Made by a program: the position numbers and the translations under genes. Positions 47,375 to 51,212 of a stretch of 64,000 nucleotides of DNA are shown here, in pieces. This DNA is from Chryseobacterium gleum. GTDB lineage: Bacteria; Bacteroidota; Bacteroidia; Flavobacteriales_D; Crocinitomicaceae. Under the pieces are notes generated by a model that was given only the letters and a program-made list of their open reading frames with translations, was not told the DNA's origin and did no database searches. The stretch's first letter is position 1; each line of letters opens with the position of its first letter. Location of the stretch: positions 1-64,000 of the forward strand of contig CAMDMY010000003.1 of NCBI GenBank assembly GCA_945902775.1, in the 5' to 3' direction.

Positions 47375-47825
47375 TAAACCATTCTTCGATGAAGAATTGG
47401 TTTAGATGATATTGTAATCCAAAGCGAGGAAAGTCTTGACGTATTAGATTATATTGTTGGGAGAGCAAAAAATCTACATCGATTAACAACTATCATTTAA
47501 ACTTGTCAATTATAATAAGCTTATCAATCTCTTACTTTTTCTTGATAAGAGAAAACACTGTTTTCGAAGGATAAGCAAAAATCAAGGATCTTTCAAAGGA
47601 ATTTTTCACTTCATTTATTTTATAAAAGTCAACAAACATAGCTAGTGAAGTGAAACCGCAGGTAAATACTTTCCTTCACGCTCTCTTTCGCTGAAAAAGC
47701 GAAACGCGATTACGGAAAATTTACAGCTAATTCGTTAGAAAGACCAATTCTAATTAGTGCTTCGCAAATAGGTGCTATTATTCTTTCTAAATTTTGGTTA
47801 CATTTTTAGTCCCAAAGTTTTGGGA
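47375..47825. other. Hairpin-dense non-coding intergenic region
   Basis: Six inverted repeats: 47375-47404, 47520-47549, 47604-47613/47646-47655, 47686-47704, 47735-47743/47782-47790, 47810-47825. Confidence 0.6.
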
Positions 47826-47955
47826 TTGATCTGTTTTGCTTATTAATTCGAACATCATGAATAAATAATATGTTTTAAAATCATATTATTTTGCATTTAT
47901 AGCACATAAAATTCAAAGAAATAAAGCCTACATTTATATTCTGAAAAGTTATCAA

Positions 47956-48194: not shown

Positions 48195-49376
48195 TTATTT
48201 GCTTTCATTCAATTTCAAATTTGTAACTAAACTAGCTGCATATTCTCTCGCTTCACGATCACTCTCAACAAAATCTTCGTATTCAGGTTTAGAAATACAA
48301 TTGCAATTAAACAATGTTTCTTCATTGATATGAGCAATGTCTAAAAAGCTAATTTTTTCTTTCAAGAAAGCTTCAACAGCTACTTCATTAGCCGCATTTA
48401 AAATACACGCAGCCGTTCCTTCCATATCCATTGCTTTATAGGCTAAATCTAGATTTTTGAACGTTTCTTTGTCTGCTTTTTCAAATGTCAATTGCGGATA
48501 ATCCATAAAATTAAATCGAGGAAAATCTGTTTTCAAACGATCTGGATAGGTCAACGCAAATTGAATCGGTAATTTCATATCAGGTAAACCCATTTGCGCT
48601 TTCATACTTCCGTCTTCAAACTGTACCAATGAATGTACAATCGATTGAGGATGAACAATTACATCAATTTGTTCTGCTTTTAAACTGAACAACCATTTCG
48701 CTTCGATTACTTCTAAGCCTTTGTTCATCATTGTAGCTGAATCAATCGTGATTTTCGCTCCCATTGCCCAATTTGGATGCTTTAACGCTTGTGCTAATGT
48801 TACTGTTTGCAATTGCTCTGTTGACCAGCCTCTGAATGGTCCACCAGATGCAGTTAAATATATCTTTTCAATTTTATTATGAAATTCGCCTACTAAGCAC
48901 TGAAAAATTGCAGAATGCTCAGAATCAACAGGATAGATATTAACTCCATTTTCTCGAGCTAATTTTGTCACCAATTCACCTGCACATACCAATGTTTCTT
49001 TGTTGGCTAAAGCAATTGTCTTTTTAGCATTAATTGCGGCTAATGTTGGTTTTAGTCCTGCATAACCTACTAATGCAGTCAAAACCGTATGGACTTCGTT
49101 GAATTCAACTACTTGCGATAAGGATTGTTCACCTGTATAAACAGTAATATCATAGTCCCAAAGCGCTTGTTTTACTTTTTCGTACAAACTTTCATCACCG
49201 ATTACAACTGTATTTGGTTTATGTTTAATCGCTTGGGCAATCAACAAATCAGCATTTGAGTGTGCTGTAATTACTTGTAAATCAAAAATATCTGGATAGG
49301 CTTCAATAACTTCTAAAGCTTGCGTACCGATCGACCCTGTAGATCCTAAAATAGCTATTCCTTTTTTCGCTTCCAT
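48195..49376 (-). CDS. dxr: 1-deoxy-D-xylulose-5-phosphate reductoisomerase
   Basis: KGIAILGSTGSIGTQALEVIEAYPD; PVDSEHSAIFQCL; TASGGPFRGW; HPNWAMGAKITIDSATMMNKGLEVIEA. Confidence 0.96.
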   Translation of the reverse strand: MEAKKGIAILGSTGSIGTQALEVIEAYPDIFDLQVITAHSNADLLIAQAIKHKPNTVVIGDESLYEKVKQALWDYDITVYTGEQSLSQVVEFNEVHTVLTALVGYAGLKPTLAAINAKKTIALANKETLVCAGELVTKLARENGVNIYPVDSEHSAIFQCLVGEFHNKIEKIYLTASGGPFRGWSTEQLQTVTLAQALKHPNWAMGAKITIDSATMMNKGLEVIEAKWLFSLKAEQIDVIVHPQSIVHSLVQFEDGSMKAQMGLPDMKLPIQFALTYPDRLKTDFPRFNFMDYPQLTFEKADKETFKNLDLAYKAMDMEGTAACILNAANEVAVEAFLKEKISFLDIAHINEETLFNCNCISKPEYEDFVESDREAREYAASLVTNLKLNESK

Positions 49377-49477
49377 AGTACAAAAATAAGGATAATTCGT
49401 ATGAAGTTAGAAAAGATTTGAAAATAGATGCGGAGACTACTTTATATTGTTCTTTTCTAAGAATTAGGGTTTATTTT

Positions 49478-49629
49478 ATTTTGAGGTGCTGGAGTTGTTA
49501 AATATATTGGAATGGGCTGAAGCCGCATTCCAATTCAATCCTCACAATATGCATTAATTTTAAAATAGGAGAATTACTTTTTTATCCATATAAGATTTCA
49601 ATAGAAATTTAATACCAGCACCTCAAAAT
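49478..49629. mobile_element. MITE-like element bounded by 15-bp perfect inverted repeats
   Basis: ATTTTGAGGTGCTGG at 49478-49492 and CCAGCACCTCAAAAT at 49615-49629; internal palindrome GGAATGGGCTGAAGCCGCATTCC at 49509-49531. Confidence 0.6.
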
Positions 49630-50210
49630 AATTTTAACCTCAACTTCGACAAGCTCAGTTGCCGTTAATTTATTTATACCAATCTCAATCTTAATTTCGA
49701 CAAGTTCAATTTCCGTTAATTAATAGCCATTCATTTTAAATGCCTCTAGCTTTAGCTGGAGGTAATAAAAAAATCAAATGAATCGGCTTTAGCCAAAATA
49801 ATAGTTACTATCATTTTATTTTAAGAATAACATTCTCTAGTTTTAATTCAGTATTTATAGGTTTTGGCTAAAGCCGATTTGTATGGAAATATTCTATTTG
49901 AATGGGCTGAAGCCGCATTCCAATTCAATCCTCAAAATGTGTATTAATTTTATAATAGGAGATAAATAAATCTTGATAATTATGAAAATGAAATAAAATT
50001 GGTCAAAAGATAATTGGAATAAAATAGAAATGATACAATAAAAAAATTACTTTTTTATCTATATAAGATTTCAATAGAAATTTAATACCAGCACCTCAAC
50101 TTCGACAAGCTCAGTTGCCGTTAATTTATTTATACCAATCTTAATTTCGACAAGCTCAGTTGCCGTTAATTTATTTATACTAATCTTAACTTCAACAAGA
50201 TTTAAATTAC
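49509..50210. repeat. Compound REP-like repeat array
   Basis: Direct repeats at 49509-49571 and 49900-49962; 49574-49625 and 50046-50098; about 45-bp ttcgacaagctcagttgccgttaatttatttata units from 49645, 49696, 50101, 50146; hairpins cctctagctttagctggagg (49743-49762), and aatcggctttagccaaaa (49781-49798) inverted to ttttggctaaagccgattt (49862-49880). Confidence 0.88.
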
Positions 50211-50213
50211 TAA

Positions 50214-51212
50214 TTACAAACCTTCAGAATCAGCTTTATGAAATTTCTTATTTGAAGTATGAATAAACGAAAATTCAAGTGCTTGAGTATCATACGATCT
50301 AAAATAAGTCAAAGGAGATGCATAACTCAATCTAAAAGTAGAATTTTTAACCATCAAACCGGCTTGAAAAACCAATGCTTTTTTATGCACCAAATTTATT
50401 CCAATAATTGGTTCATAATTCTCCTGCATAACATAATTCATTAATGCCCCAATATTATACTCATCCACTTTGTATTGATTCATATATAAAAATAGTGGTG
50501 TAATTTTAATTTTACTACTAACAGAATAGATAGCAGAAGCATGAACGTTAATTCGCATTCCAATTGTATTTGCAACAACTGTAGTTTCATCCTTTTTACC
50601 AATATGATAAACAGAAAATCCACTAGATATAACCAATTTATCGTTTTTTGATTTAGTACGATAATAAGCGCCAAAGTTGTAATCAAACTTATAATAACTC
50701 AATTGAGAATGTATTTCACCTGAAGGAATGTTATTATCGAAACCTGTACTAGAAGTTGGAGAATATTGAGAAGCATAAATAAACGTTTTAGTGTTCATAC
50801 TATTGTTCAATAAACCAGCTTGTAATCCAACGGAAAGATTGTGACGATTATTATCATCTTTAGATGAAATTATTCTATAAGATCCTGAAAGGAGAATGTT
50901 AAACGAATTAAATGCCCCGTCAACACTTCTATTATTACCAATAAACTGACCTATAGATAATCGATTATTCAATGGAACATCTATACCAACAGCTATAGAA
51001 TTAAATGAACTACTACTTTTTGAATAGGAAGCTGATTGATCTCTGTAATTAGCTGACAAAAGCACCCCTTTTTGTTTGTTTAATCTCTCACCTGTTAACG
51101 CAGGATTTAGATACAAAGGATTAGCATCAAATTGAGATAAATGGAAATCCTGAGCAAAAGAATTCGCAAGATTAAATAGAATCACTACTACAAAACAAAT
51201 TTTATTTTTCAT
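50214..51212 (-). CDS. PorP/SprF family type IX secretion-associated membrane protein
   Basis: QDFHLSQFDANPLYLNPALTGER...KGVLLSANYRDQ; beta-barrel-like C-terminus. Confidence 0.92.
   Translation of the reverse strand: MKNKICFVVVILFNLANSFAQDFHLSQFDANPLYLNPALTGERLNKQKGVLLSANYRDQSASYSKSSSSFNSIAVGIDVPLNNRLSIGQFIGNNRSVDGAFNSFNILLSGSYRIISSKDDNNRHNLSVGLQAGLLNNSMNTKTFIYASQYSPTSSTGFDNNIPSGEIHSQLSYYKFDYNFGAYYRTKSKNDKLVISSGFSVYHIGKKDETTVVANTIGMRINVHASAIYSVSSKIKITPLFLYMNQYKVDEYNIGALMNYVMQENYEPIIGINLVHKKALVFQAGLMVKNSTFRLSYASPLTYFRSYDTQALEFSFIHTSNKKFHKADSEGL

Follow-up and report, generated by a model that had tools for sequence, protein, structure and literature searches.

The 64,000-nucleotide stretch of DNA analysed here, referred to below as the window, contains a dense array of nested short repeats between dxr and a PorP-like gene, and the question raised by this locus is what the array is made of and how its repeats have been spread. 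The array is very probably a decayed, tandemly duplicated compound MITE, in which an ISAon1-type DDE shell surrounds REP-type content. The initial annotation had suggested a non-autonomous element or a REP family; both are present at once, the former as the MITE shell and the latter as its content. The array is a compound of three things, extends over 49467-50210 and is non-coding, with no open reading frame of at least 80 aa. The names of the two flanking genes are those of the initial annotation, and the name PorP-like is putative. The individual features, with their positions in the window, are as follows.

48195-49376, minus strand: flanking gene dxr, with transcription directed away from the array; orthologues in relatives, up to 94% identity
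49467-49492, plus strand: left terminal inverted repeat (GGGTTTATTTTATTTTGAGGTGCTGG) of the ISAon1-type MITE and, after it, the left-arm remnant AGTTGTTAAAT; supported by the consensus of more than 50 ends
49467-49639, plus strand: MITE copy 1, which has lost the left interior and hairpin motifs B and A by deletion
49510-49530, plus strand: REP palindrome C (GAATGGGCTGAAGCCGCATTC), copy 1
49615-49639, minus strand: right terminal inverted repeat of copy 1 (CCAGCACCTCAAAATAATTTTAACC)
49640-49735, plus strand: two TTCGACAAGCTCAG-type (TTCGAC) units between the MITE copies
49739-50099, plus strand: MITE copy 2 without its left end, consisting of the REP core and the right arm
49742-49762, plus strand: REP palindrome B (GCCTCTAGCTTTAGCTGGAGG)
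49781-49879, plus strand: REP palindromes A (AATCGGCTTTAGCCAAAA ... TTTTGGCTAAAGCCGATT), inverted 18-bp arms with 63 nt between them
49900-49920, plus strand: REP palindrome C, copy 2
50088-50099, minus strand: right terminal repeat of copy 2 (CCAGCACCTCAA), shortened at a TTCGAC unit
50093-50190, plus strand: two more TTCGACAAGCTCAGTTGCCGTTAATT units
50214-51212, minus strand: flanking PorP-like gene, its 3' end adjoining the array

All of the repeats named in the initial annotation were found where it had placed them, and three short motifs are far more frequent in the 64 kb than in shuffled sequence: GGCTNNAGCC occurs 4 times (0.08 expected), TTCGACAAGCTCAG 4 times at up to 2 mismatches (0.22 expected) and TTGAGGTGCTGG 3 times at up to 1 mismatch (0.11 expected). 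The 15-bp perfect inverted repeat at 49478-49492 and 49615-49629, spanning 152 bp overall, is the inner part of a longer pair (25 bp, 88% identity) returned by the repeat search. The array had been taken to begin at 49478; its start is moved to 49467 because the terminal repeat reaches GGG. Likewise, the 152-bp segment with inverted ends is present as described but represents an internally deleted copy and not a full-length element. The two copies of palindrome C lie inside a 68-bp repeat (93%), the inverted pair formed by AATCGGCTTTAGCCAAAA at 49781-49798 and TTTTGGCTAAAGCCGATT at 49862-49879 is 100% identical over 18 bp, and four TTCGACAAG.TCA units start at 49645, 49696, 50101 and 50146.

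The outer parts of the array were identified by their terminal repeats and by the DNA just inside them. The full terminal repeat is 26 bp long (GGGATTATTTTATTTTGAGGTGCTGG) and is accompanied by 8-bp target duplications. A scan of public species genomes with the end sequence yielded 53 stretches in MAGs labelled Flavobacteriales, Flavobacteriia, Crocinitomicaceae, Fluviicola and Chryseobacterium gleum (the last apparently mislabelled), and more than 50 ends, from several named genomes, give the consensus GGG(A/T)T....TTATTTTGAGGTGCTG, with GGG outermost. L202 (VEQH01000008.1) holds a near-complete IS of ~1.15 kb with the same ends, a perfect 8-bp target duplication (CTTTTTTT) and a frame-broken transposase. 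The pieces of this transposase match NF049917 with E = 1.7e-35 and 2.4e-10; as the reading frame is damaged, they stay under the 250-bit cut-off for the whole protein. In G005, TNAIAESVNAKIKDAIRQNKGSRDLDFFHYRIAIII is encoded inward of the right end; it corresponds to the C-terminus of NF049917 (ISAon1 family) with E = 1.6e-7 and also matches NF033550 (ISL3 family). The transposase C-terminus in these copies is encoded right up to the terminal repeat.

The 26-bp ends are common to the MITE and to the IS copies of L202 and G005, and the similarity continues beyond them. MITE subterminal DNA aligns with both IS ends (shuffle p about 0.0005-0.001), the left arm with the transposase start-codon region and the right arm with the last codons and stop, and the DNA just inside the right terminal repeat of copy 1 in the window corresponds to the transposase 3' end. 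Copies of the MITE contain no transposase gene and occupy many dispersed sites. The terminal repeats are those of a MITE, a non-autonomous derivative of an IS that probably belongs to the ISAon1 family (ISL3-like, DDE). Several genera of the bacterial family have more distant relatives of the transposase that look intact, mostly at 31-41% identity. The source genome of the window and its genus yielded no intact ISAon1 transposase, the assembly being fragmented and collapsing such repeats. A right-end relic of the IS is present on C83 of the source genome. Separately, public MAGs labelled Chryseobacterium gleum (CAMDAO and CALPSU records) appear to belong to the Crocinitomicaceae genus of the window.

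In line with the mobile character that the initial annotation had attributed to the array, its repeats are not unique to this locus, and conserved element ends, 8-bp target duplications and empty sites in relatives were all found. The core (~360-415 bp) is also present on C165, C47, C16, C88 and, in part, C89 of the source genome (3.09 Mb, 168 contigs), with pieces elsewhere. In a search of 40 genomes, it was detected in the source genome and in G001, G003, G006 and G007 of the same genus, in a diverged form in G005, and beyond the genus only as two short weak matches. Searches of phage and plasmid sequences gave no match to the array. Cores of the source genome are 91.5-96.1% identical to one another and those of G001 and G003 96.4-98.9%, so that the spread in the latter two was probably more recent. 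Copies in relatives are almost all located at contig ends, and elements of this kind break metagenome assemblies.

Two loci, for which the gene names adk, obgE and truB were assigned from sequence and synteny, allow occupied and empty sites to be compared. Downstream of truB, the gap is ~110 bp in G006 versus 683 bp with the element in the source genome. The adk-obgE distance is ~130-240 bp in eight relatives, and the source genome has the array there on contig ends C165 and C89: C165 ends with two complete and one partial tandem copies after adk, at a spacing of ~480 bp, and at the start of C89 the right end of a copy precedes obgE. The assembly was evidently broken by the repeats at this junction. 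An empty site for the exact window copy was sought in relatives and none could be shown, because the dxr-PorP junction is not conserved in the relatives examined. A further dispersed non-coding repeat was noted at 47458-47850 of the window; its pieces (70-91%) lie beside or inside MITE copies on C165, C88 and C141, and it also occurs on C16, on C13 and in G003.

Contig ends divide most copies, and target duplications were therefore sought by matching the letters that flank left and right ends within each genome. Five exact 8-letter matches, and none of 9 letters, were obtained among 130 left/right pairs in G005. Exact or one-mismatch 8-letter matches were also observed in G001, in the source genome and at L198, a MITE described below; those at C47 of the source genome (TGATTTTT/TAATTTTT) and at L198 agree in 7 of 8 letters. 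By eye, no perfect 8-bp duplication surrounds the window array, where the left flank is AAGAATTA and the nearest match on the right, AAGATTTA, is imperfect and may be due to chance. The outer flanks of the C165/C89 array showed no 8-bp duplication; what they share is a terminator-like stretch (GAGACGTATTATTATACGTCTC). The left end on C141 and the right end on C88 have the exact 8-mer GAAAATCA in common, but C88 continues past its element into other sequence, and the two are not taken as halves of one copy.

The content of the shell belongs to a different class of element. The core carries palindromes of types B, A and C, and the same three recur in the same order, without IS ends, on C13 of the source genome. 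L308 (G004) has an intact Y1_Tnp gene (PF01797) with type A, B and C palindromes around it, and the L308 protein was therefore used as the query for an order-wide search of 399 genomes, in which GGCTNNAGCC was counted within 400 bp of the 30 best loci. The motif was found near the Y1 gene at 13 of 13 loci at least 51% identical to L308 versus 2 of 17 more distant ones (Fisher p = 1.8e-6, for loci that are related and not independent). The 13 close loci come from several genera and three families, and the more distant loci mostly have different palindromes of their own. L308 and related proteins carry the motif Y---Q--HH, which is the one given for TnpA_Y1 subclass 1.2, a low-copy group generally without typical terminal secondary structures (PMC6006769). 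The 13/13 association thus provides this subclass with lineage-specific palindromes in Flavobacteriales. A GTAG/CGTC-type tag adjoining the palindrome is a feature of REP/RAYT systems (PMC3733652).

The source genome has three Y1 genes, all of other lineages; a search of it for one of the GGCTNNAGCC lineage found none, and no Y1 gene of any kind was found in or near the window copies. Non-coding GGCTNNAGCC copies of the source genome are nearly all located in MITE copies or in the C13 cluster. The core looks like a Y1 (HUH) element of the GGCTNNAGCC lineage minus its transposase gene. The A palindromes are read as the two sides of the lost tnpA_Y1 gene, and the 63 nt between them contain no recognisable tnpA remnant. 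The REP content of the window copies was accordingly classed as derived content and not as a RAYT element. Palindromes were also noted around other Y1_Tnp genes: two of the source genome, G000:C69 (L126) and G000:C50 (L127), have their own sets on both sides (GGATGTAATCC and CCCTGAAAGGG/GGGTGAAGCCC), and distant loci across Flavobacteriales (flanks of L350-L379) show long perfect palindromes with TTTAAA-like centres that are lineage-specific.

The proposed explanation is that the shell would consist of two ISAon1-family (ISL3-like) IS ends between which a deletion left only a few dozen bases from the start and from the end of the transposase gene. An intact relative would supply transposase in trans, and this would act on the 26-bp repeats, insert the shell and leave 8-bp duplications; the copies of the source genome itself would at present be inactive. 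The shell would enclose the two sides of an IS200-like Y1 (HUH) element of the GGCTNNAGCC lineage whose gene is absent. As the REP palindromes lie inside a DDE-movable shell, they have apparently spread as passengers.

Nesting of REP-type content within ISAon1-type ends was observed in three cases and with two REP types. Besides the window family, L198 (JAIPAL010000083.1) is an ISAon1-type MITE of ~510 bp, with palindromes of the GCCCTGAAAGGGC type in its interior, together with 30 residues of a Y1 transposase. These residues share 63% identity with the Y1 protein encoded on C50 (E = 5e-12), and the C50 gene is flanked by the same kind of palindromes as the L198 interior. In the third case, L303 (G004), an intact Y1 gene of the C50-type lineage lies ~160 bp inside a left ISAon1 end; the right end was not found there, so that this case has a single outer end. 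The three cases are suggestive of a recurrent process and not proof of one. A tentative generalisation, somewhat doubtful as a whole, is that two unrelated systems repeatedly nest, with Y1/HUH elements becoming enclosed in ISAon1-type ends and dispersed as DDE cargo, and that REP palindromes could in this way colonise genomes without a RAYT gene of their own.

The same nestings would also be expected if REP-type Y1 elements preferred ISAon1 ends or remnants as targets, the shell being only a landing site. The window family, the fragment of a Y1 gene within L198 and the intact gene within L303 fit such a preference; three cases are nevertheless too few to establish it, and the window family is found in five species as a single unit whose core is conserved between the two ends. 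As the sole account of the array, target preference is unlikely. It would explain how the cargo entered and not how the copies spread, and it therefore complements the compound MITE reading. Very unlikely is an explanation of the array as a selected regulatory or terminator element, in which hairpins are kept between the PorP-like gene and dxr to end or stabilise transcripts. The hairpin core does fold strongly (z = -5.1 as DNA and -5.4 as RNA), two terminator-like sites are present versus 0.4 expected, and the array lies between two genes of the same reading direction. Against this, the same core adjoins unrelated genes in five genomes and is absent beside dxr in the relatives examined, its copies show ordinary drift (91-96%), and Rfam returned no match; promoter-like sites in the array are at chance level. 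Domestication of single copies is possible but secondary. The least credible explanation is a plain BIME/REP cluster spread by a RAYT (Y1) transposase, with the 15-bp repeats as just another palindrome. In its favour, the core does consist of true REP-type palindromes clustered together and linked to a Y1 lineage, and a shell-less cluster exists on C13. Against it, the ends bear a DDE-type signature (26-bp terminal repeats, transposase-gene remnants and the 8-bp duplications, which by themselves already contradict it), and in the source genome no Y1 gene was found for the GGCTNNAGCC motif, which hardly occurs in non-coding DNA outside the MITEs and C13.

Within the compound MITE reading, the array at dxr would have arisen from one element that was partly duplicated in tandem, lost pieces and gained TTCGACAAGCTCAG units. 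The TTCGACAAGCTCAG unit, at up to 1 mismatch, was found at 20 places in the source genome versus 0 for the reversed control; over half of the places are distant from any MITE, and the unit therefore constitutes a third repeat family. A TTCGAC insert like that at 49640-49735 is also present in the C165 tandem array and in G006, where it separates the left arm of the MITE from the core; it is absent from the MITE of G001, G003 and G007, so that the insert is probably later than the MITE. The C165 unit consists of TTCGAC units, REP core and right end, repeated head to tail with no left end. The order in the window matches it: copy 1 (left end, deleted interior, right end) is followed by TTCGAC units, core, a shortened right end and further TTCGAC units. 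We infer that the window array was built up from element copies in this manner. The initial annotation had favoured an insertion hot spot over a single insertion; more than one copy is indeed present, but the array looks like the product of tandem duplication and decay of one element plus one dispersed repeat and not of many independent insertions. As a separate observation, TTCGACAAGCTCAG units often occur in runs of CAACCTCAACCTC-like low-complexity DNA (e.g. G000:C46:16799, C35:17049 and C7:54215).

A cognate RAYT transposase is generally regarded as necessary for REP palindromes, and REPs in genomes without a RAYT gene are usually put down to gene loss. The source genome, in which the cognate gene was not detected, would carry its REPs as content of a MITE from a different transposon class; carriage by a MITE is a concrete and testable route of REP spread. 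MITEs and REP/RAYT elements are each already well known, and no description of REP content without its own transposase in a DDE-type shell was found in the open-access papers searched, which likewise yielded nothing on ISAon1 or on TTCGACAAGCTCAG.

Like other IS-derived MITEs, the element is short, non-coding and mostly intergenic, has the terminal repeats and subterminal remnants of its parent, and occurs in many copies with target duplications. It differs from MITEs of the type of MITECca01, which is derived from an IS982-family element in Cardinium (PMC9769881; review PMC10969869), in its ISAon1-family (ISL3-like) parent, in its tandem copies in the source genome and in an interior that is a REP cluster and not only IS remnants. 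Palindrome clusters that are specific to a Y1 transposase lineage and surround its gene are shared with REP/RAYT (TnpA_REP) and TnpA_Y1 subclass 1.2 systems; unlike subclass 1.2 as described (PMC6006769), the palindromes here are clear, lineage-specific and dispersed without the gene inside a DDE-type MITE. The A ... A' pair resembles the inverted REP pair with a short spacer of BIMEs and REPINs (PMC2817692, PMC3116915), but there the REP pair is itself the mobile unit, whereas here the larger DDE shell carries the target duplications. With ISAon1 (NF049917) and ISL3 (NF033550, PF01610), the element shares a parent transposase best matched by NF049917, 8-bp duplications and repeats starting with GG. 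The copies found with exactly these ends have decayed or are interrupted by contig breaks, and the curated score cut-off was missed for this reason.

Two other kinds of nesting that involve the MITE were noted. At L159 (G001:C115, about 1548-1800) and L165 (G003:C44), the MITE is interrupted by a further small element of ~270 bp, whose inverted ends are AACCTCAGTTCGACTAATATTTT / AAAATATTAGTCGAACTGAGGTT. At L158 (G003:C56) and L163 (G001:C126), a window-type MITE lies in or beside a Y1_Tnp gene of another lineage (NHIH motif), inserted at the same site in two species.
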